From Sialis fuliginosa (Eukaryota; Arthropoda; Insecta; Megaloptera; Sialidae), in NCBI GenBank assembly GCA_961205875.1, contig OY540813.1, forward strand, positions 17,331,001 to 17,395,000: 64,000 nucleotides of DNA, written 5' to 3'. Below are positions 6,026 through 45,729 of this stretch, one piece after another. Every line of letters starts with the position of its first letter. Position 1 is the stretch's first letter. A program made the translations under genes and the position numbers. The notes under the pieces were generated by a model that was not told the origin of the DNA, did no database searches, and was given only the letters and a program-made list of their open reading frames with translations.

Positions 6026-6197
6026 TGTTGAGAAAGTGATTTTAGTATTGTCAGGTTAACGTGTGGCTAACTTAAGAGAAGACAAAATAATAATAAGAGT
6101 GTGTTATGGAGAAAGGTTGTTAAATATGATTTTGATAAAACAATGTAATGTTTAATAAAGGATTAAAGTATAAAGTGTTATAACTATTATTCTAACA
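6026..6197 (+). repeat. 5' LTR of copia element
   Basis: 172 bp, starting TGTTGAGAAAG and ending TCTAACA, with the usual TG...CA ends. It contains AATAAAGG, a probable polyadenylation signal. The sequence just after it, TGGTAGCAAGAG (6198-6209), is in the position of the tRNA primer-binding site. Confidence 0.95.
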
Positions 6198-6319
6198 TGG
6201 TAGCAAGAGTACGTGGTTTGTAAAATTTAATGAAAAAGATAAAGTAAAGAAGAATAAATAAAAAAACGTGGTTAACCTAAAAAAAAGAAACAAAAACGAT
6301 TATTGAACATTATGTGAAA

Positions 6320-9300
6320 ATGGCCAACAATCGAAAAGAAGAATTGATGCTGCAAATTTTCGATGGAACACATTACGAGAAATGGAAATTTAGATTAACA
6401 TTATTTCTGGAAATGAAGGAATGTAGTGAAGTGATTACATTACTAAAGAAGCCAGAAGGTATAAAAGAGGCAGAGTGGAAAAAGAAAGAAATCAAAGCAA
6501 AGAACTATATAGTTAACAGCATAACAAACACACAATTAGAATTGATAATCTCAGAAGATTCAGCAAAAAATATGATAAATAAACTAGATGAAATCTATTT
6601 AATGAAAAACAGTGCAGTCAAATTATTATGCAAAAGAAAATTACTCCAACTAAAGATGAAAGATAATGAAGAGCCAACAGAATTTTTCAATGAATTCGAA
6701 CAACAAATAAATAAACTCAAAAATGCAGGAGAAGTTGTGAACAATGAAGATAAACTAAATTATTTACTGTTAGCATTACCTGAGAACATGTCACATATAG
6801 TCGATGTAATAGACGCTTTACCAGAGAAGGATAAATCTGTGGAATACATTAAAAGTAAAATGATAGTTGAATTTCAAAAACGACAAAGTACAAATGAGAG
6901 AGCTAAGAGTAACTTTCAAGCATTCAATTCTCAAACGCGAAGAAATATAAGTAGTACATATCAACAAGCTAATAAACAGTCATCAAGTAACAATTACAAT
7001 TCGAAAAATTACTACAATGATCAATCAAGTAGATCACGAAATTACCAAATGTCAGGAGGCGCAAGATATTCAAGCAAGACAAATAATTCATGGAAACAGT
7101 GTTACAAGTGTGGTTTATTTGGTCACATAGAACGCTTTTGTCGAACAAATATGAGTTATCGTGATACATCAAGACAATTTAGTAGAAGCAATTCAACAAG
7201 AATAGCTGGAAATTCTATGGTTGAAGACAATGACAGTAAAAATTCATTTCCGGTAGAAGTTATGTCATCAAAACTTGAACAAGATAATAAAAATAAACAA
7301 TCGTTACAAGAAAACAAAGAAAATATTAAGTGGCTATTGGATAGTGGATGCTCGGATCATATTGTAAATACAGACAAATATTTTTCTGAATGTGTAAATT
7401 TAGAAAGTCCTGTTAATGTCAAAGTAGGTGATGGTTACTCACTACAATCTGAAAAGAAAGGAACAATTGTCAGTTATTTTAATGTTTCAAATGAACTGAT
7501 AGAAACTGAAATTAAAAATGTTTATTATGTACCAAAAATGGAACGAAATTTACTGAGCGTTTCAAGTATTTTAAATCAAAACAATAGCATTCTTTTTGAA
7601 AAGGACAGTGCTAACATATACAACAGAGAAGGTGAATTAATTGCGATTGGTAAACAAAACAAAAAACTATTTGAATTACATGGAATCGCTGCTAATAATA
7701 AACACAACAAAGCAAATACGTATAAATGTAATATGGATATGACAAATAAAGAAAGATGGCATAGAATTTTGGGGCATGTAAATTTCAAAGTCTTAAAACA
7801 GTTAAGTAATTGTCAACTACTTGAAGGGATGCCAAAAAGGATGGAAGATGATTTTTTGAAATGTGAAATATGTTTAGAAAATAAAATGTCAAATTTGAAG
7901 TTTGATAACAATAGAAGCAGAGCCAATGATCTCCTTGAAATAGTACATACAGATGTGAACGGACCAATAAAACAAACAGGTCACAAAGGTGAAAAATTCT
8001 TTGTAGCATTCATTGATGATTACAGTAAAATTGCAGTGGTATATTGTATAAAACAAAAAAGTGAAGTCTACGATCGATTTGTTGAATATATTAAATTGAT
8101 GCAAAATCAAACTGGTAGAAGAGTTAAGGAAGTTCGTTGTGACAATGGAAGAGAATATATAAACAAACAATTTTACGATTTAGCAAGAAATGAAGGTTTT
8201 TATTTAAGACCTGGACCGCCTTACACACATGAACTCAATGGAGTAGCTGAAAGATATAATAGAACCATAATGGATAGAGCTCGATGTCTACTTTCAGAAG
8301 CTAAGTTGGATAAGAAATACTGGCCAGAATGTGTATATACAGCTGCTTACATTGGAAATAGACTATTAACAAATACAAAATTAAAGAGAACTCCGTATGA
8401 AATATTCTTTAACAAGAAGCCTGATGTATCAAACTTACGTTTATTTGGAAGCGTAGCTTATGTGAGAGTTCCTGAAGAAATAAGATCTTCGAAATTAAAT
8501 GCAAAGGCAGTAAAAGGTATCTTAATTGGTTATACAGATACAGGGTATAGAATACTGGTTGATGATAAAATAATAACTAGTCGAAATGTGCAATTTATTG
8601 AAGAGAATACAAAATATATTAGATTTAGAGATGATTATAGTACTGATAAAGAAAATGAAGAACTTCATCTCGAAGAAGATGAAGAACCGAAGATTGATAA
8701 AATGAATAACATTGAAGATACGGAAGAAATTAAAGAAGTTAGAAAAATTGAACGTCCAAGACGAGAAACAAAGTTACCAAAGAAATATGAAGACCATGTG
8801 ATTCATATAAATTATGTAAATGCGACAATACCTGAGAATTATGAAGAAGCTACAAATTGTTCAGAATCAAAGAAATGGAAAAAAGCAATGGAAGAAGAAA
8901 TTCACAGTTTAGAAAGTAATGATACCTGGACATTAGTAAATACACCAATTGATAAACGAATTATTGAAGTAAAATGGATTTATCGAATTAAGTCAGATGG
9001 CAAATATAAAGCTCGAGTTGTTGCTAAAGGTTTTCAACAAATATACCAAGAAGATGAAGAAATATATGCACCGGTTGCAAGAATGAATACACTAAAAATA
9101 TTATTGTCAGTTGCTTGTGTAAACAGTTGGGAAATTGAACAAATGGATGTTGAAACAGCTTTTTTGAATGGTGATATTAAAACAGAAGTATACATTTATC
9201 CTCCAGATGGATACAAAACAAAGCCGAACAAGGTTTGTTTGCTAAAGAAATCGTTATATGGTTTACGAGAAAGCCCAAGAGATTGGTATGAATGTTTTCA

Positions 9301-10345
9301 TAATTTCATGGCAAGTGTTAACTTTAAACGATCCAACTATGATTATTGCTTGTATACAGGAAAAATGAATAACAATCAAATGTACATTATTTTATATGTA
9401 GATGATTTATTAATTTGTGGAGCTGATAAAAAGACTATTGATATGATGAAAACAGTATTAAATCGAAGATTTCGTATGAAAGATCTAAACCAAATTAAAA
9501 ATTATTTAGGAATTGAAATTGAATACTATCCTAGTGAAAAGAAAATGTTACTAAGCCAGCAAAAATACATAGAAAGCTTAGCTGAAAAATATCAAATTGA
9601 AGATTCAAAAACTTTTAAAACACCAATGGAAATTAACTTAAAATTAGAGCCAGCAGAAAGTGTTGATAATAAAGTAAAATATAGAAATGTAATTGGAGCT
9701 TTATTATATATAGCTAACGGAACTAGACCGGACGTATCCTTCCCAGTGAACTATTTGAGTCGTTATCAAAACTGTTACAATGGTACACATTACAAATATG
9801 CTCTACGCATTCTGAAATATTTGTATTCATCTCGACATATCAAACTTAAATATGATTCTCACTTTACTGAAGAAATTGACGCCTACGTAGATGCTGATTG
9901 GGCAGCAGATATAATCGACAGAAAATCAACAACTGGAATATTAATAAGAGTTTACGGAAATCCAGTGTTATGGAAAACGCAAAAACAAAAAACAGTTTCA
10001 AGAGCCTCTACTCACGCAGAGTATTATGCCCTAGCAGACTGTGTAGAAGAAGTGTTACCTGTTAAAGGAATTCTAAGTGATTTAGAAGTGATAATTGACT
10101 TTCCAGTGACTATTAATGAAGACAATACAGGAGCCATCGCGCTCGCTGAAAAAGGGAAATTTGTGAAAAATTCAAAACATATAGACGTTAGTTATCAATT
10201 TGTAAATGATTTAAAAAAGAAAAATGTAATAAGTATAAGAAAAATTTCAACTGACGATCAGATCGCAGACATACTAACAAAATCCTTAGGGAGATGTAAA
10301 TTCGAAAAATTTAGAGATTTGTTAAATTTAAAATATGATGAATAA
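6320..10345 (+). CDS. copia gag-pol polyprotein (gag, protease, integrase, RT, RNase H)
   Basis: One uninterrupted frame of 1341 residues from ATG at 6320; an in-frame GTG six bases upstream is not needed. In order: a copia-type gag region (about residues 5-200); a CCHC zinc knuckle CYKCGLFGHIERFC (about 261-274); aspartic protease WLLDSGCSDHI (about 341); integrase zinc-binding HHCC (WHRILGHVN ... CEIC, about 480-520); an integrase core with HTDVNG, RCDNGREY and NGVAERYNR carrying the D, D, E residues (about 545, 607, 643); reverse transcriptase with DVETAFLNGD and YVDDLL (about 1027); RNase H with DADWAAD and KHIDVSYQF. Integrase before RT is the copia order. There are no stops or frameshifts, so the element may be competent. 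Gag and pol are fused in one frame, as in Drosophila copia. Confidence 0.97.
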   Translation: MANNRKEELMLQIFDGTHYEKWKFRLTLFLEMKECSEVITLLKKPEGIKEAEWKKKEIKAKNYIVNSITNTQLELIISEDSAKNMINKLDEIYLMKNSAVKLLCKRKLLQLKMKDNEEPTEFFNEFEQQINKLKNAGEVVNNEDKLNYLLLALPENMSHIVDVIDALPEKDKSVEYIKSKMIVEFQKRQSTNERAKSNFQAFNSQTRRNISSTYQQANKQSSSNNYNSKNYYNDQSSRSRNYQMSGGARYSSKTNNSWKQCYKCGLFGHIERFCRTNMSYRDTSRQFSRSNSTRIAGNSMVEDNDSKNSFPVEVMSSKLEQDNKNKQSLQENKENIKWLLDSGCSDHIVNTDKYFSECVNLESPVNVKVGDGYSLQSEKKGTIVSYFNVSNELIETEIKNVYYVPKMERNLLSVSSILNQNNSILFEKDSANIYNREGELIAIGKQNKKLFELHGIAANNKHNKANTYKCNMDMTNKERWHRILGHVNFKVLKQLSNCQLLEGMPKRMEDDFLKCEICLENKMSNLKFDNNRSRANDLLEIVHTDVNGPIKQTGHKGEKFFVAFIDDYSKIAVVYCIKQKSEVYDRFVEYIKLMQNQTGRRVKEVRCDNGREYINKQFYDLARNEGFYLRPGPPYTHELNGVAERYNRTIMDRARCLLSEAKLDKKYWPECVYTAAYIGNRLLTNTKLKRTPYEIFFNKKPDVSNLRLFGSVAYVRVPEEIRSSKLNAKAVKGILIGYTDTGYRILVDDKIITSRNVQFIEENTKYIRFRDDYSTDKENEELHLEEDEEPKIDKMNNIEDTEEIKEVRKIERPRRETKLPKKYEDHVIHINYVNATIPENYEEATNCSESKKWKKAMEEEIHSLESNDTWTLVNTPIDKRIIEVKWIYRIKSDGKYKARVVAKGFQQIYQEDEEIYAPVARMNTLKILLSVACVNSWEIEQMDVETAFLNGDIKTEVYIYPPDGYKTKPNKVCLLKKSLYGLRESPRDWYECFHNFMASVNFKRSNYDYCLYTGKMNNNQMYIILYVDDLLICGADKKTIDMMKTVLNRRFRMKDLNQIKNYLGIEIEYYPSEKKMLLSQQKYIESLAEKYQIEDSKTFKTPMEINLKLEPAESVDNKVKYRNVIGALLYIANGTRPDVSFPVNYLSRYQNCYNGTHYKYALRILKYLYSSRHIKLKYDSHFTEEIDAYVDADWAADIIDRKSTTGILIRVYGNPVLWKTQKQKTVSRASTHAEYYALADCVEEVLPVKGILSDLEVIIDFPVTINEDNTGAIALAEKGKFVKNSKHIDVSYQFVNDLKKKNVISIRKISTDDQIADILTKSLGRCKFEKFRDLLNLKYDE

Positions 10346-10380
10346 TTTTTTTTGTATAAGTTTAAAAAAGGACAATATAA

Positions 10381-10393
10381 AATTAAGGAGGCG
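10381..10393 (+). other. Polypurine tract of copia element
   Basis: AATTAAGGAGGCG lies immediately before the 3' LTR, in the position of the plus-strand primer. Confidence 0.75.
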
Positions 10394-10565
10394 TGTTGAG
10401 AAAGTGATTTTAGTATTGTCAGGTTAACGTGTGGCTAACTTAAGAGAAGACAAAATAATAATAAGAGTGTGTTATGGAGAAAGGTTGTTAAATATGATTT
10501 TGATAAAACAATGTAATGTTTAATAAAGGATTAAAGTATAAAGTGTTATAACTATTATTCTAACA
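10394..10565 (+). repeat. 3' LTR of copia element
   Basis: 172 bp, matching the 5' LTR base for base as far as I can read, and followed by the GTTAG target duplication. Confidence 0.95.
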
Positions 10566-10570
10566 GTTAG

Positions 10571-11939
10571 ATTTACTGGTAGCGTGACTGATGCTATGAG
10601 GAAAACAATGTTATTTTGTTTTATATAACACTTTATTATAGAAACATAAATATTGTGAAAAGACAATACAATTAAAAATGTTATCACCAGAATTCAGCAG
10701 ATGCAATATACATTATTATTATCAGGTCGTTGAATTGACCAATAGTTCAAAGGGTTAAAAGTAGCATTTTGAGTTCGATTTTAAAAATTGGCTTTTTTAT
10801 AATATATCGTCGGTTTACAAGTAAAACACCAAGTATTTTTTTTTTTATTTTGGCTTAAGGACACTATCGACTGGTTGTATCAACAAAGTCATACAATATT
10901 GCCTTAATATTGAAATCTATATTTATAGGTTTTTACTAAAATTTCCTCAAAATCAAGTTTGTGTTTTTTGCTTATGAATCGATGATATAATATTTTATGT
11001 GGACTTATACCACTCAAATATGACATTCTGTTTTACTACATGTATTTAATTTTTTATATTATCTAACATATACTTATGTAATTAATTAATTTTGAGGTGT
11101 ACGACCAAATCAGTGGTGGTACACGAGCTATATTCATGAGTCCAGTAACAGTTTATGTTAAGATCAGACACATTCAACATAGTCAGTACGGCAGAAAATT
11201 GCCCTTTTGGAAGACACGACAAAATCCGAATGTGTTCAATCTGATACCAATTCGCATGGCCTCATCTGAATATAACTCGTGCATCGCTGCTGGACCAAAT
11301 CATGTATTATTGAAATACAAACATATAATATTTATAACTTTTTCTTTTTATGATTTCATTTTATATAATTTTATTTCAGATAAAATTATTTTGATTATAA
11401 CCATTATAACAATCAGAGGTTTTCTGAATTATTCATTACTAAAGGGAGTTTTTGAGCTTTATGAATTGTGTATCTCAATATATTTGTTAATATTATTCAA
11501 AAACTAAGGGTTTTCAGACAAAAACTTTAATGAAAACTGTAGCAGATGGTCTCTAAACAATTTTTTATATACAAAAGTGATATAACTCAAAAGTCAAAAT
11601 GACTAATTTCATGGCAAAAAATCGTGAATATTAAAGTTTTTATAAATAAAAAAAAAATTAGAGGCATATAAACATGTTTTTTTGTTTAATTTGTTTATAT
11701 TAAATAAAAAATATTTTTGTGAAAATCTTTCCAAAAGTTAATTTTTGTAGGTACCTAAAAATATTTTAAAAATATGTAACGTATGTAACTATTGGGATCT
11801 CTCATAGAACATAATTTAATAAAATAATAAAACCTAGTTAGTTGATTACTGAAACCAACTGAAACGACTGAAACCACTGAAACTATATTCATTACACAGA
11901 ACCAGAACATTATTCATTATTGAAACAGCTGTAGTAACT
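10571..11939. other. Non-coding AT-rich stretch with one unrecognised open frame
   Basis: This is host sequence between the copia insertion and the foldback structure. A frame at 11097-11507 starts at GTG and gives 136 residues. Its first 75 or so are of mixed, protein-like composition (for example GGTRAIFMSPVTVYVKIRHI), but I recognise no family and see no supporting splice structure. The rest is low-complexity AT. GAAAC-containing words cluster at 11850-11926. Confidence 0.4.
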
Positions 11940-12659
11940 TAGCGACGATCCAGCGACGGTAGTGGTACCAACGTAAAATAAAGAAATTGTACAAATAAAA
12001 ATTGCAAATAAAACCTAATTAAAGCATCGGGAGTGGAATTAATTAGCATAATTATAACAAACAAACGATTATCTTTCTTATTACGTTATAATTATTCATA
12101 ATACAACAATTTTAATAAACATAACCTTAACATCTGTCAGATACAAAAGTTAATGAAAAAAGTGCTCAAACAGTATTGTTTCAGAGACATAACGCGACAA
12201 CTATTAATAATATAATATTGAACATCTAATTTCATTAAAACAAGTGCTTCGGGTGCCTTAACTATTCTATACTATCGTAAAATGAAGAAAATGTGTCAAC
12301 AATAGATCCGACCGGCTGACTAAAAAAAATATTTCTGAAAGACTATCACCGTTACAGTTGTGAAATTTTTACATAATGTAGAGGGAACCCTAAAGTTTTC
12401 AAAAAAAAATTGTCCTTTATAGGAACCCCAACTGATTTTAAATAAAAAAATAATTATTAGCCCCTCTAACAATTCGACGGCTTTAATTGATTACGGTATC
12501 AAAACGAGCTAACGAAATGTCATGAAATTTTAATCCAAACATACAGAAACATAATTACACATTCTAACGCAAACAGCATTTCAAAAAAATGCTTTTATAA
12601 AAAAAAGATTACAAAAATTTTTTGGGAAAAAAACATTATGTAGAAGTGTGGAATTATAG

Positions 12660-14770
12660 TGAGTAGGTCCATAAAACTTCACTGATTCGCGTGAAATAGT
12701 TATTTTTTTAGAGACTCCAACCGATTTATTACAATTAATTATTAAATATCAAACATTAATCGTGAGTACAAATCAAATCACGTTGGTATACCGGATTCGG
12801 CCACACCCCCTTTTATAACAGCAAAACAATCGGCTAACGTAACCTAACAAGCCAGCGAAGTGACAAGTAACGTGCAAACATTTCCGAAATTCATTATTAT
12901 CGGGTGATTCATGTAGAGGTACTTTTTTCTGTATGGTATTTTTGTTCAGTATTGTTTAACATTTCATCATCGAAAGGCTTAACGCGGTACAGCGTCTACA
13001 AATTATTCAGCTGTATTATGAAAATCAGTGTTCTACAAAGAATGTGTTTCGTGCGCTTAGAACAACTTATGGTCCACATAATTGGCCTACCGAACGTACA
13101 ATTCGATATACCATCGAAAAATTTGCAACTCAATATTCATTATTGGGTAATACACGTAGTGAACAAAATGTAGCGTCTTATGGGCTGGTGGAATAATTTG
13201 AATGACGCCCGTTATCGCGCCATGATAACGGACTATTTGCTGCCTGAAATTGAAGCCCGTAATCTCGACGACATTTGGTTCCAATAAGACGGCGCTACTT
13301 GCCACACAGCCCGTGAAAGCATGGCTTTATTGCGAGAACAATTCGGTGAACAGTTAATTTCACGCTTCAGATCGATGAATTGACCGCCTAAATCTTGGGA
13401 TATCACACCTCTAGACTTTTTCCTTTGGGGCTACGTAATGTCCTAAGTCTACATGGATAAGCCGGCTACGATTGAGGAATTGGAAGCCAATATTATTCGC
13501 GTCATTTGCCAAATACCACTCAAAATGCTCTAACGCGTCATCAAAAATTGGAACTGCAGAATGGACCATGTTAGGCGTAGTTACGGCCAACATTTGAAAC
13601 AAATAGTCTTTAAAAAATAAATGTAAAGAATGGTTCTTTTATATGATAACAAAGATTACCCGATACAATTGATTTTGATATTATTTTAAAAGTGCATCTA
13701 AATGAATCACCCAGTATTTGATCATAATTGACTTTATAACGTTTTACTGTGTATTGTGTAATAATAAATAACATAATAACATATTATATCTAGTTGTTTT
13801 TTTCATCTGCTTACTATATGAACATTCATATTATTATTTTCAGGTATTTTAAATAAAATAAACACTAAGGTAAGTAAATTCTTTATTAACAGTGCATTAA
13901 TAACTAAGTACATTTGCATAACATGTTATTTTTAATATAAATAAGAATGTCACAACAAACATTCCTGTAAAACTTTCAGTTACTCGTGAAATACAATATT
14001 TGCCATATTAAAATTATTTACTTGATCATGCATATTTTTTAGAAGTATATATAATTCTTTTAATTATCCTTACATTAGTTTTCCTACAGAATTCAAAATT
14101 GACAATCAGTTTACTTAGGTTATGTCGATCGTGTTATGTTTACATATAAGAAAAAATAAATTTGGATAAAAACATTGTCGCGATCGTGATGAAAATTACA
14201 GAGAATATAGAAAAAATGCTCGGCATTCGATACACGAAGAGAAAATTTGCCAAAGTACTACAGATTTTTAAAAATTTGCTTCGTCGTCAGTTCTTAAGAA
14301 CCAGCGACGGAGCGGAAATCTCAAAATCTGTTGGAGTTCCGGACATTTTTTCTTTGTTATTCGAACACTGAATATTCATACTACATCCCCTGCAATTTTC
14401 ATCACGATCGTGTGTATATTTCCAATGAAAATTAATATTTACATATACGATACATGACAACAAGGAAATAAATAAAAAAGGCTACCAATGGCTACCATCG
14501 ACGGTATCCGTTTCGATAATAACGAACATACACACGCACGCACACACGCATACATCTCAAGGTATAATGACCGGCTAATATAAAATTTAATTCAGAAAAT
14601 AATATTGCCTCGATCGTGATGAAAATTACAGGGGAAGTAGAATGAATACTCAGTGTTCGAATAACGAAGAAAAATTTTACACAATTGCAACAGATTTTTA
14701 GATACACGCACCGTCGCTAACTTCCCACTTTTAAAAACATCACGTAGAAATATGTAAATATGGTCAATAG
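12660..14770. repeat. First tandem unit of left arm, split by mariner insertion
   Basis: This is a diverged copy of the 1263-bp unit (GTCCATAAAACTTCACTGAT at 12670 starts the recognisable match), lengthened by the 815-bp mariner insertion. It matches later units from about 14116 onward almost exactly. The left boundary is fuzzy. Confidence 0.75.
12900..13714 (+). mobile_element. Defective Tc1/mariner element, left-arm copy
   Basis: 815 bp with ends TCGGGTGATTCAT and (reversed) CTGGGTGATTCAT, bounded by TA on both sides (12898-12899, 13715-13716). Removing it restores the uninterrupted unit sequence seen in the other tandem units, so it is a true insertion. It carries a transposase remnant: a helix-turn-helix part (FRALRTTYGPHNWPTERTIR, about 13051-13110) fused by an internal deletion to the C-terminal catalytic part. 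That part includes IWFQ-stop-DGATCHTA and TPLDFFLWGYV and has several stops. The first catalytic Asp region is deleted. Non-autonomous. Confidence 0.85.
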
Positions 14771-17700
14771 GTCCATAAAACTTCACTGATTCGCGTAAAA
14801 TAGTTATTTTTTTAGAAACTCCAGCTGATTTATTACAATTAATTATTAAATATCAAACATTAATCGTGAGTACAAACCAATTAACGTTGGTATGCCGGAT
14901 TCGGCCACACCCCCTTTTGTGACAGCAATCTGTACCTAACAAGCCAGCGAAGTGACAAGAAACATGCAGACATTTCCGAATTTCATTATTATTTGATCTT
15001 AATTGACTTTATAACGTTTTACTGTGTATTGTGTAATAATAAATAACATATATCTAGTTGTTTTTTCATCTGCTTACTTTATGACCATTTATATTATTAT
15101 TTTCAGGTATTTGAAATAAAATAAACACTAAGGTAAGTAAATTCTTTATTAACAGTGCATTAATAACTAAGTACATCTGCATAATATGTTTTGTTAAATA
15201 TAAATAAGAATGTCACAACAAAAGTTCCTGTAAAACTTTCAGTTACTCGTGAAATACAATATTTGCCATATTAAAATTATTTACTTGATCATGCATCTTG
15301 TTTAGAAGCATGTATAATTCTTTTAATTATCCTTACATTAGATTTCCTACAGAATTCAAAGTTGACAATCAGTTTACTTAGGTTATGTCGATCGTGTTAT
15401 GTTTACATATAAGAAAAAATAAATTCGGATAAAAATATTGTCGCGATCGTGATGAAAATTACAGAGAATATAGAAAAAATGCTCGGCATTCGATACACGA
15501 AGAGAAAATTTGCCAAAGTACTACAGATTTTTAAAAATTTGCTTCGTCGTCAGTTCTTAAGAACCAGCGACGGAGCGGAAATCTCAAAATCTGTTGGAGT
15601 TCCGGACATTTTTTCTTTGTTATTCGAACACTGAATATTCATACTACATCCCCTGCAATTTTCATCACGATCGTGTGTATATTTCCAATGAAAATTAATA
15701 TTTACATATACGATACATGACAACAAGGAAATAAATAAAAAAGGCTACCAATGGCTACCATCGACGGTATCCGTTTCGATAATAACGAACATACACACGC
15801 ACGCACACACGCATACATCTCAAGGTATAATGACCGGCTAATATAAAATTTAATTCAGAAAATAATATTGCCTCGATCGTGATGAAAATTACAGGGGAAG
15901 TAGAATGAATACTCAGTGTTCGAATAACGAAGAAAAATTTTACACAATTGCAACAGATTTTTAGATACACGCACCGTCGCTAACTTCCCACTTTTAAAAA
16001 CATCACGTAGAAATATGTAAATATGGTCAATAGGTCCATAAAACTTCACTGATTCGCGTAAAATAGTTATTTTTTTAGAAACTCCAGCTGATTTATTACA
16101 ATTAATTATTAAATATCAAACATTAATCGTGAGTACAAACCAATTAACGTTGGTATGCCGGATTCGGCCACACCCCCTTTTGTGACAGCAATCTGTACCT
16201 AACAAGCCAGCGAAGTGACAAGAAACATGCAGACATTTCCGAATTTCATTATTATTTGATCTTAATTGACTTTATAACGTTTTACTGTGTATTGTGTAAT
16301 AATAAATAACATATATCTAGTTGTTTTTTCATCTGCTTACTTTATGACCATTTATATTATTATTTTCAGGTATTTGAAATAAAATAAACACTAAGGTAAG
16401 TAAATTCTTTATTAACAGTGCATTAATAACTAAGTACATCTGCATAATATGTTTTGTTAAATATAAATAAGAATGTCACAACAAAAGTTCCTGTAAAACT
16501 TTCAGTTACTCGTGAAATACAATATTTGCCATATTAAAATTATTTACTTGATCATGCATCTTGTTTAGAAGCATGTATAATTCTTTTAATTATCCTTACA
16601 TTAGATTTCCTACAGAATTCAAAGTTGACAATCAGTTTACTTAGGTTATGTCGATCGTGTTATGTTTACATATAAGAAAAAATAAATTCGGATAAAAATA
16701 TTGTCGCGATCGTGATGAAAATTACAGAGAATATAGAAAAAATGCTCGGCATTCGATACACGAAGAGAAAATTTGCCAAAGTACTACAGATTTTTAAAAA
16801 TTTGCTTCGTCGTCAGTTCTTAAGAACCAGCGACGGAGCGGAAATCTCAAAATCTGTTGGAGTTCCGGACATTTTTTCTTTGTTATTCGAACACTGAATA
16901 TTCATACTACATCCCCTGCAATTTTCATCACGATCGTGTGTATATTTCCAATGAAAATTAATATTTACATATACGATACATGACAACAAGGAAATAAATA
17001 AAAAAGGCTACCAATGGCTACCATCGACGGTATCCGTTTCGATAATAACGAACATACACACGCACGCACACACGCATACATCTCAAGGTATAATGACCGG
17101 CTAATATAAAATTTAATTCAGAAAATAATATTGCCTCGATCGTGATGAAAATTACAGGGGAAATAGAATGAATACTCAGTGTTCGAATAACGAAGAAAAA
17201 TTTTACACAATTGCAACAGATTTTTAGATACACGCACCGTCGCTAACTTCCCACTTTTAAAAACATCACGTAGAAATATGTAAATATGGTCAATAGGTCC
17301 ATAAAACTTCACTGATTCGCGTAAAATAGTTATTTTTTTAGAAACTCCAGCTGATTTATTACAATTAATTATTAAATATCAAACATTAATCGTGAGTACA
17401 AACCAATTAACGTTGGTATGCCGGATTCGGCCACACCCCCTTTTGTGACAGCAATCTGTACCTAACAAGCCAGCGAAGTGACAAGAAACATGCAGACATT
17501 TCCGAATTTCATTATTATTTGATCTTAATTGACTTTATAACGTTTTACTGTGTATTGTGTAATAATAAATAACATATATCTAGTTGTTTTTTCATCTGCT
17601 TACTTTATGACCATTTATATTATTATTTTCAGGTATTTGAAATAAAATAAACACTAAGGTAAGTAAATTCTTTATTAACAGTGCATTAATAACTAAGTAC

Positions 17701-19179
17701 ATCTGCATAATATGTTTTGTTAAATATAAATAAGAATGTCACAACAAAAGTTCCTGTAAAACTTTCAGTTACTCGTGAAATACAATATTTGCCATATTAA
17801 AATTATTTACTTGATCATGCATCTTGTTTAGAAGCATGTATAATTCTTTTAATTATCCTTACATTAGATTTCCTACAGAATTCAAAGTTGACAATCAGTT
17901 TACTTAGGTTATGTCGATCGTGTTATGTTTACATATAAGAAAAAATAAATTCGGATAAAAATATTGTCGCGATCGTGATGAAAATTACAGAGAATATAGA
18001 AAAAATGCTCGGCATTCGATACACGAAGAGAAAATTTGCCAAAGTACTACAGATTTTTAAAAATTTGCTTCGTCGTCAGTTCTTAAGAACCAGCGACGGA
18101 GCGGAAATCTCAAAATCTGTTGGAGTTCCGGACATTTTTTCTTTGTTATTCGAACACTGAATATTCATACTACATCCCCTGCAATTTTCATCACGATCGT
18201 GTGTATATTTCCAATGAAAATTAATATTTACATATACGATACATGACAACAAGGAAATAAATAAAAAAGGCTACCAATGGCTACCATCGACGGTATCCGT
18301 TTCGATAATAACGAACATACACACGCACGCACACACGCATACATCTCAAGGTATAATGACCGGCTAATATAAAATTTAATTCAGAAAATAATATTGCCTC
18401 GATCGTGATGAAAATTACAGGGGAAGTAGAATGAATACTCAGTGTTCGAATAACGAAGAAAAATTTTACACAATTGCAACAGATTTTTAGATACACGCAC
18501 CGTCGCTAACTTCCCACTTTTAAAAACATCACGTAGAAATATGTAAATATGGTCAATAGGTCCATAAAACTTCACTGATTCGCGTAAAATAGTTATTTTT
18601 TTTAGAAACTCCAGCTGATTTATTACAATTAATTATTAAATATCAAACATTAATCGTGAGTACAAACCAAATAACGTTGGTATGCCGGATTCGGCCACAC
18701 CCCCTTTTGTGACAGCAATCGTAACTGATCGTAACCTAACAAGCCAGCGAAGTGACAAGAAACATGCAGACATTTCCGAATTTCATTATTATCTGATCAT
18801 AATTGACTTTACAACATTTTACTGTGTATTGTGTAATAATAAATAACATATATCTAGTTGTTTTTTTCATCTGCTTACTATATGACCATTTATATTATTA
18901 TTTTCAGGTATTTGAAATAAAATAAACACTAAGGTAAGTAAATTCTTTATTAACAGTGCATTAATAACTAAGTACATTTGCATAACATGTTATTTTTAAT
19001 ATAAATAAGAATGTCACAACAAAAGTTCCTGTAAAACTTCCAGTTACTCGTGAAATACAATATTTGCCATATTAAAATTATTTACTTGATCATGCATATT
19101 TTTTAGAAGTATATATAATTCTTTTAATTATCCTTACATTAGTTTTCCTACAGAATTCAAAATTGACAATCAGTTTACT
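14771..19179. repeat. Tandem array of 1263-bp units (three full, one partial)
   Basis: Units at 14771-16033, 16034-17296 and 17297-18559 are almost identical, each exactly 1263 bp. A fourth, slightly diverged unit runs from 18560 and stops at 19179. Each unit carries three related subrepeats starting CGTGATGAAAATTRCAG in +,-,+ order, a microsatellite-like CACACGCACG tract, and an acceptor/donor-flanked 26-nt segment. Open frames of 61-71 residues occur on both strands at identical places in each unit. They overlap antisense and look like a by-product of copying, not genes. Confidence 0.93.
15107..15132 (+). other. Microexon-like cassette, repeated in every unit
   Basis: The segment is preceded by TATTATTATTTTCAG and followed by GTAAGTAAA, a good 3' and a consensus 5' splice site around a 26-nt segment. 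The same arrangement recurs at 13844-13869, 16370-16395, 17633-17658 and 18908-18933, and inverted in the right arm. Whether it is ever spliced cannot be told from sequence. Confidence 0.35.
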
Positions 19180-19429
19180 ATAAATTCAGCTCAGAGTTCA
19201 ATAAATATTTATTTATCATTGACCGTTAATTCTATATTAGTGAAGTTTCATGAAATAGTTGACTATAATTACTTTAATTATAAATTTCAGCATTGTTTTG
19301 CAGAAGCTATAAACGCTATAAACTATGTCTATGATCTTGACTTTATATCCAAGTTAAATTTTATATTTGCCGCGTCTTATCAAATCATCAACTGTATACT
19401 TGAATTTGATTGGCTGCGTGCGTCCGTGT
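19180..19429. other. Unique centre of the foldback structure
   Basis: About 250 bp lies between the end of the left-arm array and the start of the inverted right arm, with no copy elsewhere in the window. An open frame on the plus strand (19219-19524) crosses it, but I recognise no protein in it. It would form the loop if the arms paired. Confidence 0.5.
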
Positions 19430-19828
19430 GTTTCCTTGTGTCATGTATCGTATATGTAAATGTATTAATTTTCATTGAAAATATACACACGATCGTGATG
19501 AAAATTGCAGGGGATGTAGTATGAATACTCAGTGTTCGAATAACGAAGAAAAAATTTCCGCAACTCCAACAGATTTTGAGATATTCGCTCCGTCACTGGC
19601 TGATAATAACTGACGACGAAGCAAATTTTTAAAAATCTGTAGTACTTTGGCAAATTTTCTCTTCGAATATCGAATACCGAGCATTTTTTCTATATCCTCT
19701 GTAATTTTCATCACGATCGCAACAATATTTTTATCCGAATTACTTTTTTCTTATATGTATGTAAACATAACACGATCGACATAACCTAAATAAACTCAAT
19801 TTTGAATTCTGTAGAAAAACTAATGTAA
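19430..19828. repeat. Inner end of right arm (inverted unit fragment)
   Basis: This is an inverted, somewhat diverged copy of the unit segment equivalent to about 14070-14471. It contains the facing CGTGATGAAAATTGCAG and CTGTAATTTTCATCACG motifs (about 19493 and 19700). It breaks at the Harbinger insertion. Confidence 0.8.
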
Positions 19829-22098
19829 TGCCCGGTATTATAAAGAAATTGCATGGGTGCAAATTCGCGTCTGCGCACATTAGCTGTCAAATAACGCTAT
19901 CAATTGGGTATTAAATTGTTATGAATTTGCTCGATATTTTAAAGCAGTGGTAATAAATAGACACATAATAATGTAATCGATGCATGTACATTATATGGGT
20001 GTACACAAATGTGTATTTTAAGTCTGTGATGTGTTTATATTGAATTTAAATTGACACATAACCTAAGTATACGATATTTATGGACAAAAACATAACGTGT
20101 TGTGGTAAAAATTGAAAATTAAACTGCTGGTAAGTAGTAAATATACTTTTATATAACACATTCATATTATAATACATAGCTCTTTAAAGCAATTGCCTGC
20201 ATTTGGCATTTTTTTACAAAACGCTTGAAGATGAAAAACATTGTTTACTTTTAATTGTCATATAAATTTTATTTTTATATTATACTTTTATAATATATAG
20301 TATTTATCTCAACTTTTTGTATATTACAGAAACGTTTCAAAATGTCATCAATTTCATCTGGACATTTTATATCGCCTGAATATTCAGTATTATTTTCAGA
20401 TAACATTCAAATACCAAGAGAATCTTGGGTGTTCAGAGAAAGAAATGATCCAATACTAATGTATAATGAAAAAAAGATTAAAAAATGAGCATCAGAAGGT
20501 GGCTGGGAAATGATAGATGTTCGAAAAGTGGTAAGAAGCAAATTTACAAGCGTCATAAGGTGGTTTGGATACAGCAGAAGCTGATCAAAAAGCAGCATTA
20601 TGTATATAAAGGAATCGAGAGCAGTGGAGAAGATATTCAGCCGTATTCATAGTTCCTCCTTGTTACTAAATTTACGTTTCATAAAACTTCCTTGACTACG
20701 AAGGCTTCCTTATCTCAAGGTTGGTCGGAAGCTTTCTTAAGGCAGCTTTGAATACAATTTTAACTGTAATGCTGACAATGTGTATATAAACATAACATAA
20801 CATAAAAGTAGTTACACATTTCAATCTGTAGCTTTGTGCTGTCATTATCTTTTTAGACAAAGTGAATAAAGGAAAAAAAAAAGATAATGGACAATGAATT
20901 TAAAAAAAACACTTTATTTATAAACTAAACATTATTAATAACATAACACTAGTAAGTCACTAAAAAGTCCTAAAATATTCATTACTTCTAGAAGGAAACC
21001 TTGAGATCTGTCTATGAAACAAGGGCGCCTTGGATATCTGTGATAGCCCTGATCGAGGTTTTCTCCGACCTTGCGATAAGGAACGATTATGATTACGGCT
21101 GATTGGAGATGAGAGTACTTGAGATAAAACATAAGTATATTGTGATGCTCTGTTTTGTAAATCAATCTGAAAATAAATGTATAATATTGATTAAAATGTT
21201 TTTATTATTGCAATGTTATGATTGGTCTTACAAATATTATTTCGTTGTCACTGCTTTTCTCTAATTAGGCATCTGAAATAAAGAAAAATTTAATTAATTG
21301 ATATTTTAATTATATATAAATGATAAAAAATTACCAAAAAACAAACCGAAAGGTGCACAGCTACCAACAGGATTTCATAGCTACCTAGTTTTATTTCCAA
21401 TTGTATGTAAAAAAAATTTTGTCTTACAAAATCTATTTTTTTTTAAATACATCTCCCGTCTTGTATAATTCTACCTATAAAATTAATTCAATTAGTAATT
21501 TGTTTGTAAAACTTATTTTATAATAATGAATTACCTTCTCATCCGCACAATCTTTCTTGGCTTTTTTTTTTAATACTTTCGTGAAGATTTTTTAATTGAA
21601 TACCATTACGTAGTTGGCCTGTCTTTGTAATATTATTGAAATCACTAGCTATTTCGGTTGTCTTATTTTCGATAATATCTATGTATTTTAACACCAGCTC
21701 TAATAAAACCTGCTTATCATCATCACATTGTATCCTTTTTCTCTCATTTTAATTTTTTTTATATACTTAAATAAACTTTTCATCAAAATAAGTACTTATT
21801 ATAGTATTTTGATTTAGTTGTTTATCATAATAAAGAAATGTCAAATTGAATAGTTTCCTTTTAGTGATATTGACTAGAAGTCTATTTTTCTGTATATCAC
21901 AAAATCACAACAGGTTTTACGACTGCTGATTTCTACTTAATAACACGCATGCGTGAAAGTCATAATATCTACGATTTCATTGGCTACATTTTTGAGTAAT
22001 TGTAATTTACATTTAATACCCAGTAGATAGCGTTATTTGACAGCTAATGTGCGCAGGCGCGAATTTGCACCCATGCAATTTCTTTATAATACCGGGCA
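19829..22098. mobile_element. PIF/Harbinger-like element, copy 1
   Basis: 2270 bp with inverted ends TGCCCGGTATTATAAAGAAA; the similarity continues inward for about 75 bp up to GATAGCGTTA. TAA lies on both sides (19826-19828, 22099-22101). The uninterrupted arm sequence near 25640 has a single TAA there, so this is a 3-bp target duplication typical of PIF/Harbinger. No intact transposase is visible. A frame at 20341-20487 (starting MSSISSGHF) ends early. A 76-residue minus-strand frame (20935-21165) is conserved in copy 2 but unrecognised. Class is inferred from ends and target. Confidence 0.75.
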
Positions 22099-23111
22099 TA
22101 AGGATAATTAATGCCCGGTATTATAAAGAAATTGCATGGGTGCAAATTCGCGTCTGCGCACATTAGCTGTCAAATAACGCTATCAATTGGGTATTAAATT
22201 GTTATGAATTTGCTCGATATTTTAAAGCAGTGGTAATAAATAGACACATAATAATGTAATCGATGCATGTACATTATATGGGTGTACACAAATGTGTATT
22301 TTAAGTCTGTGATGTGTTTATATTGAATTTAAATTATCTCAAGGTTGGTCGGAAGCTTTCTTAAGGCAGCTTTGAATACAATTTTAACTGTAATGCTGAC
22401 AATGTGTATATAAACATAACATAACATAAAAGTAGTTACACATTTCAATCTGTAGCTTTGTGCTGTCATTACCTTTTTAGACAAAGTGAATAAAGGAAAA
22501 AAAAGATAATGGACAATGAATTTAAAAAAAACACTTTATTTATAAATTAAACACTATTAATAACATAACACTAGTAAGTCACTAAAAAGTCCTAAAATAT
22601 TCATTACTTCTAGAAGGAAACCTTGAGATCTGTCTATGAAACAAGAGCGCCTTGGATATCTGTGATAGCCTTGATCGAGATTTTCTCCGACCTTGCAATA
22701 AGGAACGATTATGATTACGGCTGATTGGAGATGAGAGTACTTGAGATAAAACATAAGTATATTGTGATGCTCTGTTTTGTAAATCAATCTGAAAATAAAT
22801 GTATAATATTGATTAAAATGTTTTTATTATTGCAATGTTATGATTGGTCTTACAAATATTATTTCGTTGTCACTGCTTTTCTCTAATAAGGCATCTGAAA
22901 TAAAGAAAAATTAAATTAATTGATATTTTAATTATATATAAATGATAAAAAATTACCAAAAAACAAACCGAAAGATGCACAGCTACCAACAGGATTTTGT
23001 AGCTCCCTAGTTTTATTTCCAATTGTATGTAAAAAAAAATTCGTCTTATAAAATCTATATATATTGTAATATTATTGAACTCGCTAGCTCTTTCATTCCA
23101 CGTTTGATTTT

Positions 23112-23901
23112 TGCTTCCTCGCAATATCGAAGATACGAGAAGCTATGTGATCGTTTCAGATTGAGACAAAAAAAAAGTTCTCCAATTTAAAAATTTTAAA
23201 TTTATTTATCCGTTTCACGTCAAGACAAACACTATTCGTTCCGTGTCTGTCTGTCTGTCCGTGTGTCCGTCCGTCCGTCCGTCCGTCTGTCCCCTGAATC
23301 CTTGTCACACGCATAACTCATGAACCACTGAACCGATATTATTGAAACTTGGTCGGATGGTTGGGTTTGGTTTGAGGACGGTCCCATTTCAAAATCATCA
23401 AAATCGTGTGTAAGGGGGAGGGGTGACACCCCAAAATATTTATTTTTTCAAGATATCTCAAGAACGACACATGTTACGAGAAAATTTTATAGAATATTTT
23501 TTGTAGAGAATTAATTTCCTATAATATGGGTCTACTACGTTTGTTGTAAAATATTCCCTTACAAAGATTTATCTAAATTAATTTTAAAAATTCGTGTTTT
23601 GTTTTTCTAAATTGATATTTGATTGGATATATTAAGTGTCATTTTGACGTTTTAAATGTCACTTTGGCGTTTTAAATGTCACTTTGACGTTTTAAATGTC
23701 ATTTTGACATTTGCATAAATTTAGATTTAGATTGAAATTGTCAAAAAATTAAAAATATATGAAAAAATATTCAGGTGCGTTTTAAGAAAAAATTCGAACT
23801 AAGATTTTTTAGTAAAATTTGTATAAAAATTAAATGGTTAACCAATGCCAGGCAATTTATCTGAACACTATCGGTTTTAGTGAATTTAGCACGAGGAAGC
23901 A
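23112..23901. mobile_element. TGCTTCCTCG-ended element inserted in Harbinger copy 2
   Basis: 790 bp between TGCTTCCTCG and CGAGGAAGCA. Internal landmarks are a GTCC/GTCT microsatellite (about 23242-23290), ACTCATGAACCACTGAACCG, and a short minisatellite. Related segments occur at 49617-50073, 51450-51944 and 52776-53305. Non-coding; superfamily uncertain. Confidence 0.7.
23636..23716. repeat. 20-bp minisatellite
   Basis: Four tandem copies of a unit of the type ATGTCATTTTGACGTTTTAA. It is internal to the TGCTTCCTCG element; the other copies of that family have only one such motif. Confidence 0.85.
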
Positions 23902-24393
23902 CTGTGCATTTACTTGGCAGATGTTTTTTTATTTGTAGTTACTAAATCGGTTGTCTTATTTTCGATAATATCTATGCATTTTAACACCAGCTCTAATAAA
24001 ACCTGCTTATCATCATCACACTGTATCCTTTTTCTCTCATTTTAATTTTTTTTTATATACTTAAATAAACTTTTCATCAAAATAAGTACTTATTATAGTA
24101 TTTTGATTTAGTTGTTTATCATAATAAAGAAATGTCAAATTGAATAGTTTCCTTTTAGTGACATTGACTAGAAGTCTATTTTTTCTGTATATCACAAAAT
24201 CACAACAGCTTTTAAGACTGCTGATTTCTACTTAATAACACGCATGCGTGAAAGTTATAATATCTACGATTTCATTGGCTACATCTTTGAGTAATTATCA
24301 TTTACATTTAATACCCAGTAGATAGCGTTATTTGACAGCTAATGTGCGCAGGCGCGAATTTGCACCCATGCAATTTCTTTATAATACCGGGCA

Positions 24394-27300
24394 TTATACA
24401 TGCTTCTAAACAAGATGCATGATCAAGTAAATAATTTTAATATGGCAAATATTGTATTTCACGAGTAACTGAAAGTTTTACAGGAACTTTTGTTGTGACA
24501 TTCTTATTTATATTTAACAAAACATATTATGCAGATGTACTTAGTTATTAATGCACTGTTAATAAAGAATTTACTTACCTTAGTGTTTATTTTATTTCAA
24601 ATACCTGAAAATAATAATATAAATGGTCATAAAGTAAGCAGATGAAAAAACAACTAGATATATGTTATTTATTATTACACAATACACAGTAAAACGTTAT
24701 AAAGTCAATTAAGATCAAATAATAATGAAATTCGGAAATGTCTGCATGTTTCTTGTCACTTCGCTGGCTTGTTAGGTACAGATTGCTGTCACAAAAGGGG
24801 GTGTGGCCGAATCCGGCATACCAACGTTAATTGGTTTGTACTCACGATTAATGTTTGATATTTAATAATTAATTGTAATAAATCAGCTGGAGTTTCTAAA
24901 AAAATAACTATTTTACGCGAATCAGTGAAGTTTTATGGACCTATTGACCATATTTACATATTTCTACGTGATGTTTTTAAAAGTGGGAAGTTAGCGACGG
25001 TGCGTGTATCTAAAAATCTGTTGCAATTGTGTAAAATTTTTCTTCGTTATTCGAACACTGAGTATTCATTCTACTTCCCCTGTAATTTTCATCACGATCG
25101 AGGCAATATTATTTTCTGAATTAAATTTTATATTAGCCGGTCATTATACCTTGAGATGTATGCGTGTGTGCGTGCGTGTGTATGTTCGTTATTATCGAAA
25201 CGGATACCGTCGATGGTAGCCATTGGTAGCCTTTTTTATTTATTTCCTTGTTGTCATGTATCGTATATGTAAATATTAATTTTCATTGGAAATATACACA
25301 CGATCGTGATGAAAATTGCAGGGGATGTAGTATGAATATTCAGTGTTCGAATAACAAAGAAAAAATGTCCGGAACTCCAACAGATTTTGAGATTTCCGCT
25401 CCGTCGCTGGTTCTTAAGAACTGACGACGAAGCAAATTTTTAAAAATCTGTAGTACTTTGGCAAATTTTCTCTTCGTGTATCGAATGCCGAGCATTTTTT
25501 CTATATTCTCTGTAATTTTCATCACGATCGCGACAATGTTTTTATCCAAATTTATTTTTTCTTATATGTAAACATAACACGATCGACATAACCTATGTAA
25601 ACTGATTGTCAATTTTGAATTCTGTAGGAAAACTAATGTAAGGATAATTAAAAGAATTATACATGCTTCTAAAAAAGATGCATGATCAAGTAAATAATTT
25701 TAATATGGCAAATATTGTATTTCACGAGTAACTGAAAGTTTTACAGGAACGTTTGTTGTGACATTCTTATTTATATTAAAAATAACATGTTATGCAAATG
25801 TACTTAGTTATTAATGCACTGTTAATAAAGAATTTACTTACCTTAGTGTTTATTTTATTTAAAATACCTGAAAATAATAATATGAATGTTCATATAGTAA
25901 GCAGATGAAAAAAACAACTAGATATAATATGTTATTATGTTATTTATTATTACACAATACACAGTAAAACGTTATAAAGTCAATTATGATCAAATACTGG
26001 GTGATTCATTTAGATGCACTTTTAAAATAATATCAAAATCAATTGTATCGGGTAATCTTTGTTATCATATAAAAGAACAATTCTTTACATTTATTTTTTA
26101 AAGATTATTTGTTTCAAATGTTGGCCGTAACTACGCCTAACATGGTCCATTCTGCAGTTCCAATTTTCGATGACGCGTTAGAGCATTTCGAGTGGTATTT
26201 GGCAAATGACGCAAATAATATTGGCTTCCAATTCCTCAATCATAGCCGGCTTATCCATGTAGACTTAGGACATTACGTAGCCCCAAAGGAAAAAGTCTAG
26301 AGGTGTGATATCCCAAGATTTAGGCGGTCAATTCATCGATCTGAAGCGTGAAATTAACTGTTCACCGAATTGTTCTCGCAATAAAGCCATGCTTTCACGG
26401 GCTGTGTGGCAAGTAGCGCCGTCTTATTGGAACCAAATGTCGTCGAGATTACGGGCTTCAATTTCAGGCAGCAAATAGTCCGTTATCATGGCGCGATAAC
26501 GGGCGTCATTCAAATTATTCCACCAGCCCATAAGACGCTACATTTTGTTCACTACGTGTATTACCCAATAATGAATATTGAGTTGCAAATTTTTCGATGG
26601 TATATCGAATTGTACGTTCGGTAGGCCAATTATGTGGACCATAAGTTGTTCTAAGCGCACGAAACACATTCTTTGTAGAACACTGATTTTCATAATACAG
26701 CTGAATAATTTGTAGACGCTGTACCGCGTTAAGCCTTTCGATGATGAAATGTTAAACAATACTGAACAAAAATACCATACAGAAAAAAGTACCTCTACAT
26801 GAATCACCCGATAATAATGAATTTCGGAAATGTTTGCACGTTACTTGTCACTTCGCTGGCTTGTTAGGTTACGTTAGCCGATTGTTTTGCTGTTATAAAA
26901 GGGGGTGTGGCCGAATCCGGTATACCAACGTGATTTGATTTGTACTCACGATTAATGTTTGATATTTAATAATTAATTGTAATAAATCGGTTGGAGTCTC
27001 TAAAAAAATAACTATTTCACGCGAATCAGTGAAGTTTTATGGACCTACTCACTATAATTCCACACTTCTACATAATGTTTTTTTCCCAAAAAATTTTTGT
27101 AATCTTTTTTTTATAAAAGCATTTTTTTGAAATGCTGTTTGCGTTAGAATGTGTAATTATGTTTCTGTATGTTTGGATTAAAATTTCATGACATTTCGTT
27201 AGCTCGTTTTGATACCGTAATCAATTAAAGCCGTCGAATTGTTAGAGGGGCTAATAAATATTTTTTTATTTAAAATCAGTTGGGGTTCCTATAAAGGACA

Positions 27301-27771
27301 ATTTTTTTTTGAAAACTTTAGGGTTCCCTCTACATTATGTAAAAATTTCACAACTGTAACGGTGATAGTCTTTCAGAAATATTTTTTTTAGTCAGCCGGT
27401 CGGATCTATTGTTGACACATTTTCTTCATTTTACGATAGTATAGAATAGTTAAGGCACCCGAAGCACTTGTTTTAATGAAATTAGATATTCAATATTATA
27501 TTATTAATAGTTGTCGCGTTATGTCTCTGAAACAATACTGTTTGAGCACTTTTTTAATTAACTTTTGTATCTGACAGATGTTAAGGTTATGTTTATTAAA
27601 ATTGTTGTATTATGAATAATTATAACGTAATAAGAAAGATAATCGTTTGTTTGTAATAATTATGCTAATTAATTCCACTCCCGATGCTTTAATTAGGTTT
27701 TATTTGCAATTTTTATTTGTACAATTTCTTTATTTTACGTTGGTACCACTACCGTCGCTGGATCGTTGCTA
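24394..27771. repeat. Right arm of the foldback structure
   Basis: A near-identical inverted copy of 11940-15317: one uninterrupted unit segment, then the mariner-split unit, then the outer end. Differences from the left arm are sparse single bases and small indels. Confidence 0.92.
25997..26811 (-). mobile_element. Defective Tc1/mariner element, right-arm copy
   Basis: 815 bp, the reverse complement of the copy at 12900-13714, at the equivalent site with TA flanks (25995-25996, 26812-26813). It has the same internal deletion and stops, so the mariner was already present when the arm was duplicated. Confidence 0.85.
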
Positions 27772-27994
27772 TCTACACACACATTATTGAAACTAGCTTT
27801 GCGAAAAGAAGGAACATTTTTATGTACAGTACTGTCACCTATTGACAAAATGTACAATATGAGAATTTTATGTTACCGACCTTACCGACTTAACCATAGA
27901 TAAAAACGCTAGTTGTTTTTTCCGTTTTTCATTTTATCATTTTGTAATTCGGAATTATGCTATGATACGCTCTACGCTATTCAAATACGTCAAT
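27772..27994 (+). promoter_or_regulatory. lin-9 upstream region
   Basis: Only 223 bp separate the foldback end from the lin-9 ATG, so the core promoter must lie here or inside the transposon-derived arm. I see no clear TATA box. CGCTCTACGCTATTCAAA lies just upstream of the ATG. Confidence 0.4.
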
Positions 27995-44717: not shown

Positions 44718-45729
44718 CAGAGCCGCCTTAGCATGTCGCGCCCTGGCTGAGATTTATTTTTCCGCCCTCTTTCCCCCTAAAAAATCACCGGAAATGTCAA
44801 TTGAAATTGATAAATTAACAGATAAGCTTAATAGTTGATATCTCAGCTTGGCGCGATCCTACAGACTCAAACTTTTTTTTAAATATACATAGCTTACATC
44901 ATTAACTTCAAGACTATCAAATGCCCTATTAACAAATTAAAATTGATAAATTAACAAATAAGTTGAATAATTAAAATCTCAGGATATCATCTCATACATT
45001 TTTTAACGACTGATGAAAAAAAAATCATAAAACTTAATTTATACTAGACTACATTACGAATAAAATGAGCTCACAGTTTGAACTCTCTACCACTAATAGA
45101 ACCAGAGATATGTCATCGTGAAATTGGGTCTCCGTGTATCATAAGTATATATGTGAGCATTCTTTAGGTCGTTTTTTTTTATTTAAATTTATTTTATTTG
45201 TAATTTTATAGAGAACAAAAAGTATCTACAATTTTGATGGATTTCGCGATTAGGGTTACAAAACGTGAAAAATCGTACATATGTGTGCCTTTCTTAATAC
45301 ATTTTATAGCTCTGGGGATTGGTTTGTACTTTTTTTTATAAAAATTAATAATTTTTATAAGAATTTGAAGAAAATATTTAAGAAAAATAGATAGTTTGAA
45401 AATATAAACATCAACCATTAACCCTTGCCCTAAAACACCTTATTAAAGGTTTTCTGGGTTGTTGAATAAGGATTTGTTAGTTAGCAGCTAACAAATAATC
45501 GATTTTTTTTAGAATTTAAAAAAAATTAACATTGTTTATATTTAGTAATACTTTTTTGCTAAATCGGTTTTAACAGATCGACAAAAAATTTAAAGATTAA
45601 AAAAAAGTTTACTCAAAAATTACAGCCTGTACACTGATTTGAACTAAAAAAGTCACTTATGTCATGTCCCATTGTGCGCCGCCCCACCTGGCCTGGCGCC
45701 CCGGGCGATCGCCCTTAAAGCTGGCGCTG
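44718..45729 (+). mobile_element. hAT-type non-autonomous element with 8-bp target duplication
   Basis: 1012 bp; ends CAGAGCCGCCTTAGC and (reversed) CAGCGCCAGCTTTAA. Flanks TAGGTAGT (44710-44717) and TAGGTAGG (45730-45737) agree at 7 of 8 positions. An internal segment (about 44840-44990, with CAGCTTGGCGCGATC) is the single-copy ancestor of the 160-bp array at 48600-49616. The 3' end is GC-rich (GCCCCGGGCGATCGCCC). The minus-strand frame at 45206-45418 shows no recognisable domain. Confidence 0.75.

Follow-up and report, generated by a model that had tools for sequence, protein, structure and literature searches.

The arms of Drosophila FB elements are several kb long. In Tetris, from Drosophila virilis, the parts of the published account compared here describe repeats of about 220 bp and inverted repeats of up to 1,735 bp (PMC4079207). 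Among the Tm1 elements, a Mutator/Foldback family of root-knot nematodes, one form is described as encoding a Phantom-type transposase (PMC3169594). Galileo includes copies with chimeric ends, to which the family presented below can be likened in the sections of that paper compared (PMC3573991). Mutator-like elements (MULEs) have been described with target-site duplications of 8-10 bp (PMC5225508), and one survey, compared in part, gives their inverted repeats as 14-500 bp (PMC6446971).

The window, i.e. the whole 64-kb stretch of DNA analysed here (29% G+C), lies at C5:17331001-17395000 of a 392-Mb, 20-contig assembly. It contains a 15.86-kb structure with long inverted arms, which is probably a copy of a non-autonomous foldback DNA transposon family, most likely mobilised by a MULE and with arms that seem to recombine.

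Structure of the window copy and its surroundings

The element extends from 11927 to 27784 and is built, from the outside in, of a 13-nt tip, a 689-bp outer domain, tandem units and a 248-bp core. An earlier note, made from the sequence of the window, had described inverted, near-identical arms of more than 3.3 kb, 1263-bp tandem units that were more numerous on the left and a unique centre of about 250 bp, and all three descriptions are borne out. In a self-comparison of the window, 11940-15318 and 27771-24393 were inverted copies with 16 mismatches and no gaps over 3379 bp; there are about 4.5 units in the left arm and about 1.8 in the right, the exact unit number resting on the assembly; and the centre corresponds to the core at 19183-19430. 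The overall extent proposed there, 11940-27771, is correct for the inverted arms, but the true ends lie 13 nt further out on each side and are flanked by TATTGAAAC. In the left arm, unit 3 has a single base difference from units 2 and 4, which are identical to each other. The features are as follows.

11918-11926, no strand: left target-site duplication TATTGAAAC; identical 9-mer at 27785-27793, with the 13-nt offset found in 13/13 main copies
11927-11939, plus: left tip, type A (AGCTGTAGTAACT), lying beyond the inverted repeat; 13/13 main copies pair an A tip with a B tip
11940-12628, plus: left outer (flanking) domain, 689 bp, starting with TAGCGACGATCCAGCGACGG; at least 26 full-length genome matches, 13 inverted pairs
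12629-14732, plus: left unit 1 with mariner-like insert (self-comparison)
12900-13714, plus: decayed mariner-like element with TA target duplication, recognised by DUF4817 and its ends; same site in both arms, 13/13 copies
14733-18521, plus: left units 2-4, 1263 bp each; 0-1 differences among units
18522-19182, plus: left innermost partial unit, 661 bp (self-comparison)
19183-19430, plus: core, 248 bp; shared by all 13 copies (97.6-99.6% alike in the 12 besides the window copy) and oriented either way relative to the tips
19431-19828, minus: right-arm innermost partial unit; compared with left units, 24 of 393 aligned bases mismatched and 13 gap bases
19829-22098, no strand: nested element X, ends TGCCCGG/CCGGGCA, TAA duplication, Myb/SANT-like fragment (ends, Pfam)
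22112-24393, no strand: nested element Y, second X copy with partly different interior; TAA on the left, TTA on the right, 8 bp of expected sequence missing on the right
24394-24978, minus: right unit 2, outer part; 0 mismatches to left unit 2
24979-27082, minus: right unit 1 with mariner-like insert at 25997-26811 (self-comparison, insert ends)
27083-27771, minus: right outer (flanking) domain (self-comparison, genome matches)
27772-27784, minus: right tip, type B (ATGTGTGTGTAGA read inward; tip comparison across copies)
27785-27793, no strand: right target-site duplication TATTGAAAC, copy of 11918-11926

A 135-bp sequence is present three times in each unit, in diverged copies that alternate in orientation. 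Two of these copies start with AGCGACGG, and the ends of the element start nearly so. This end motif is found twice per unit, and the 48 kb of window sequence beyond the element lack it; none of 3000 simulated units contained it twice. The CpG observed/expected ratio is about 1.5 in the outer domain and unit (11940-19430), versus 0.93 in the window outside the element.

The mariner-like element encodes a DUF4817 helix-turn-helix (Pfam, E 1.1e-11). Unit 2 of the right arm is split by X and Y, two tandem copies of one element that we take to be PIF/Harbinger-like; the Myb/SANT-like fragment of X was detected with an E value of 9.4e-5 (Pfam), and Y has no matching target duplication. The window copy consists of an element of ordinary size (about 8.7 kb), to which two further units in the left arm add 2.5 kb and the two nested Harbinger-like elements 4.6 kb.

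The genes of the window encode a tyrosyl-DNA phosphodiesterase, LIN9 and a RanBP1-domain protein, presumably NUP50. From the gene and repeat content, we judge the host to be an insect. The end of the foldback element (27784) lies about 210 bp upstream of the putative first-exon ATG of LIN9 (27995), which is followed by a GTAAGT donor in an exon read by eye, and the element may lie in the LIN9 promoter. There is also a young copia retrotransposon at 6026-10565, with a 173-bp terminal match that is 100% identical, a GTTAG duplication and one 1354-aa open frame. A second, smaller inverted pair of tandem arrays occupies 46395-46757 and 48606-49615, with 2.2 and 6.3 copies, respectively, of 160-bp units; the two arrays are about 82% alike, and a related piece lies at 44741-44981. 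Rfam and tRNA scans of the 64-kb window were empty.

Copies, target-site duplications and subfamilies

The assembly was searched with an arm query that covered the outer domain, the beginning of unit 1 and the greater part of the mariner-like insert; 40 of 130 candidates were scored, and the counts are therefore lower bounds. At least 44 matches were obtained. Twenty-six were near-complete, with 98-100% identity, and formed 13 inverted pairs, six others (80-81%) formed three further pairs, and the remaining 12 were shorter, many falling within the mariner-like part of the query. A search with the outer domain (40 of 68 candidates scored) gave at least 40 matches, namely the same 26 and six plus eight partial single ends. 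The main group thus comprises at least 13 copies, including that in the window, on eight contigs (C1, C3, C4, C5, C6, C8, C11 and C13). Eleven of them measure 7.5-8.8 kb (mostly 8.6-8.8 kb), with L014/15 reaching 11.2 kb and the window copy 15.86 kb, and all 13 share the core and the mariner-like insert in both arms. The arms of L018 and L019 differ at only 4 of 3060 positions and the B arms of L012 and L014/15 at 1 of 3060; because these arms are nearly identical, we consider the family to have been recently active. On contig C1, the inverted-repeat ends of L013 and L014 are 478 bp apart, and each has its own 9-bp duplication.

The unit gave at least 192 matches (40 of 53 candidates scored). 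The possibility that it is a free satellite was rejected, as only three places outside the 13 copies were found among the matches listed. No match was obtained for 11940-15995 in phage and plasmid records, and four pattern scans of viral contigs and a scan of genome contigs for a unit motif likewise gave none. A 20-mer from the end had two bacterial matches in genome contigs, about the number estimated by chance for 257 billion bases.

In all 13 main copies, the inverted repeat is flanked on both sides, at a distance of exactly 13 nt, by a perfect 9-bp direct repeat, whose sequence differs from copy to copy. Including the second subfamily described below, such duplications were found in 15 of 16 elements, the exception being L026, and no other symmetric offset from 0 to 30 gave a perfect 9-mer in any of the 16. 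A 12-bp target duplication read from the window alone (and a looser 16/17 repeat) was discarded, because the copies give 9 bp; the three extra letters match by chance. The two 13-nt tips of a main copy, always one of type A (AGCTRTAGTAACT) and one of type B (ATGTRTGTGTAGA), are not copies of each other. Dispersed copies with duplications of fixed length, as expected of a DNA transposon with inverted repeats, were found for 13/13 main copies, and the inverted arms, which are very long and contain a variable number of tandem repeats, are those of a foldback-type element. The whole body, i.e. the two long arms and the 248-bp core, moved as a unit, making 9-bp duplications.

Of the two possibilities raised in the earlier note, a giant non-autonomous foldback family and a local inverted duplication, the 12 further copies, together with the perfect 9-bp duplications in 13/13, decide in favour of the former. 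The alternative that a single locus underwent local inverted duplication and tandem amplification but no transposition would be in keeping with the window alone, which has long near-identical arms and no transposase, but it is extremely unlikely given the 12 other copies, each with flanks and a 9-bp duplication of its own. It is also very unlikely that the assembly created false palindromes or joined arms wrongly. Left units 2-4 are nearly identical and their number could be misjudged, but the arms differ by 16 substitutions and by the nested elements, and matching duplications at 13 loci are not expected from mis-joining. The two flanks of the window element have no similarity to each other, and this dissimilarity and the 12 copies elsewhere argue strongly against an assembly palindrome at one locus.

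The three further pairs (L024, L025 and L026) constitute a second subfamily, with an outer domain about 84% alike over 666 bp to that of the main group and no match to the mariner-like insert, core or unit body. Two of the three copies have 9-bp duplications, and both ends bear the same type of tip, which in L026 has a one-base change. The arms of L025 are identical over 1853 bp and carry the same 243-aa frame on both strands (1229-1960 and 3900-4631 of L025), which corresponds to part of a reverse transcriptase (Pfam RVT_1; one of the two frames gave E 4e-14). A minus-strand frame of L024 also matched RVT_1 (E 5e-13; Pfam), and L026 has related frames in one orientation only. The mirrored frame of L025 indicates that the arms also acquire foreign sequence: they take it up, and have done so at least once symmetrically, with a reverse-transcriptase frame captured and mirrored.

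Divergence and probable exchange between the arms

The mean distance between the arms of one copy was 0.0059, versus 0.0107 for all A-B pairs, and none of 20000 shuffled pairings gave a value as low. In 10 of the 13 copies, the B arm nearest to the A arm was that of the same copy, this not being so in L012, L016 and L020; an arm's own partner was its nearest arm overall in only 12 of 26 cases. Three copies (L018, L019 and L023) had no mismatch between their arms in 3060 positions, and 64, 42 and 28 mismatches were counted in L016, L020 and L011, respectively. Homogenisation of the arms is therefore at most episodic, given the divergence in these last three copies and the small number of arms nearest to their own partner. 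Part of the likeness between arms could have been inherited through transposition, rather than arising by repeated conversion.

The core side that ends at position 646 of the unit lies on the arm with the A tip in four copies (the window copy, L012, L018 and L014/15) and on the arm with the B tip in the other nine, and the close relatives L018 and L019 differ in core orientation. This pattern implies that tips and core have been exchanged relative to each other, as predicted by crossing over between inverted arms. The number of unit pieces per arm varies from one to five across copies. In the window copy, the last 1203 bp of the arm match before Y are free of mismatches (P = 0.0009 for such a terminal run), unlike the arm directly inside X, with its 24 differences in 393 positions and 13 gap bases. 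The simplest reading would be a conversion tract that halted at the nested elements X and Y, which could nevertheless be a coincidence.

These sequence patterns point to host recombination acting on the arms between jumps. Gene conversion, copying one arm onto the other, would place a single mariner-like insertion in both arms, crossing over between the arms would flip the core, and unequal exchange would change the number of units. We consider it improbable that the rewriting of arms and flipping of the core belong to the element's own life cycle and not only to host repair, through a hairpin or single-stranded stage at each jump in which one arm serves as the template for the other; if this were true, new copies would start with identical arms and with the core in either orientation, and an insertion into one arm would pass to both. 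The 13 recent copies with intact target duplications constitute a natural experiment on the evolution of long inverted arms, since events of conversion, core inversion and unit amplification can be tallied in each copy.

Mobilisation and relationship to known systems

The absence of a visible transposase, as stated in the earlier note, was upheld: ten frames, drawn from the open frames of at least 60 aa at 11900-24400 plus one shorter piece, were tested against Pfam, and only the matches to the nested mariner-like and Myb/SANT-like sequences stood out. The mariner-like and Harbinger-like parts were rejected as mobilisers; they are nested inserts, and the mariner-like element and X have target duplications of their own. 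Ten MULE-domain matches were found in the assembly (16/16 candidates scored). The related autonomous copy whose search the earlier note had suggested was not found among these loci, in which the family ends were not detected within 4-5 kb on each side. In the same intervals, the outer domain, unit and arm of the second subfamily matched over only 23-45 bp (E 0.005-0.009), the core had no match, and tip-like octamers were present singly and unpaired in three of the ten loci. The nearest MULE match is more than 1.1 Mb from any of the at least 40 outer-domain matches.

One of these loci, L039 (C7; 748-9705), contains a 482-aa frame with FLYWCH (E 9.9e-13) and MULE (E 2.1e-11) domains (Pfam). This frame sits between 1523-bp inverted arms that are 97.3% alike and contain 15-bp and 107-bp tandem repeats. 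The 9-mer TATTTTATT adjoins both arm ends, although it is AT-rich and constitutes weak evidence by itself. Another MULE locus, L042 (C8), has inverted repeats with sequence of similar appearance to that of L039. A Phantom-type foldback element with tandem arms is thus resident in the same genome, the C7 element probably being an analogy to the family of the window copy and not its partner.

A transposase of the Mutator-like (MULE, Phantom) type acting in trans is the most likely mobiliser, and it would bind the ends of the element and the end-like AGCGACGG sites in every 1263-bp unit. Mobilisation by a MULE is favoured because the duplications are 9 bp long, within the 8-10 bp of MULEs, the tips are not inverted and lie outside the inverted repeat, as in Tm1 (PMC3169594), and a FLYWCH-MULE frame resides in another foldback element with tandem arms. 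A foldback transposon of the same anatomy might instead be mobilised by a non-MULE transposase, e.g. one of the P superfamily, as in Galileo, or of an undescribed type. We regard this as unlikely: the duplications are of 9 bp in 15/16 elements and not of 7 bp as in Galileo (PMC3573991), and tips that lie beyond the repeat and are not inverted are a feature reported for MULEs in the parts compared of a paper (PMC3169594) that also reports foldback architecture with different transposase classes, which, together with the absence of a MULE gene with family ends among the ten MULE loci, is the evidence in its favour. The family provides a setting for testing whether repeated end-like sites help a transposase and whether long palindromes stay mobile.

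The window family was not described in the open-licence literature searched, and the following comparisons refer to parts of the cited papers. The organisation of Tetris is similar, with an outer flanking domain (up to 866 bp in Tetris), tandem repeats and a middle part; its repeat number is variable, complete copies have 8-9 bp duplications, and there is likewise no coding capacity and no transposase-bearing partner found (PMC4079207). Compared by architecture only, the family studied here differs from Tetris in its 1263-bp units and arms of 3.3-8.3 kb, the upper value including nested elements (PMC4079207). Tm1 also has asymmetric terminal motifs outside the inverted repeat, generally with one type per end, mostly 9-bp duplications and unequal tandem repeats, and is mostly non-autonomous (PMC3169594). 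However, its tips are 7 bp long (CGGTTAA/CCTACCC) and its repeats about 14 bp, versus AGCTRTAGTAACT and ATGTRTGTGTAGA and a 1263-bp unit here (PMC3169594); the family has neither the terminal motifs nor the repeats of about 14 bp by which Tm1 members are recognised.

The likeness to Galileo (P superfamily) drawn in the earlier note applies to architecture, i.e. to long inverted repeats that are internally repetitive (one Galileo subfamily has tandem repeats of about 210 bp), but does not extend to the duplications; those of Galileo are 7 bp long, and its inverted repeats range from 18 bp to about 1.26 kb (PMC3573991). With 9 bp in 15 of 16 elements, the family lacks the 7-bp duplications of Galileo and the P superfamily. 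The insect Muta1 and Phantom MULEs share 8-10 bp duplications and composite inverted repeats with subterminal tandem repeats, but their inverted repeats are shorter, with 145 bp given for Muta1 and 18-613 bp listed under Phantom in the survey (PMC5225508, PMC6446971). In plant MULEs with tandem inverted repeats, the terminal repeat sequence is tandemly duplicated in mobile elements, mostly as two or three repeats and not as arrays of 1.26-kb units (PMC3310237). The window element is of a kind already known from Tetris, Tm1 and Galileo, and its family, with arms and units larger than those in the parts of the papers compared, extends the size range of foldback elements relative to them.
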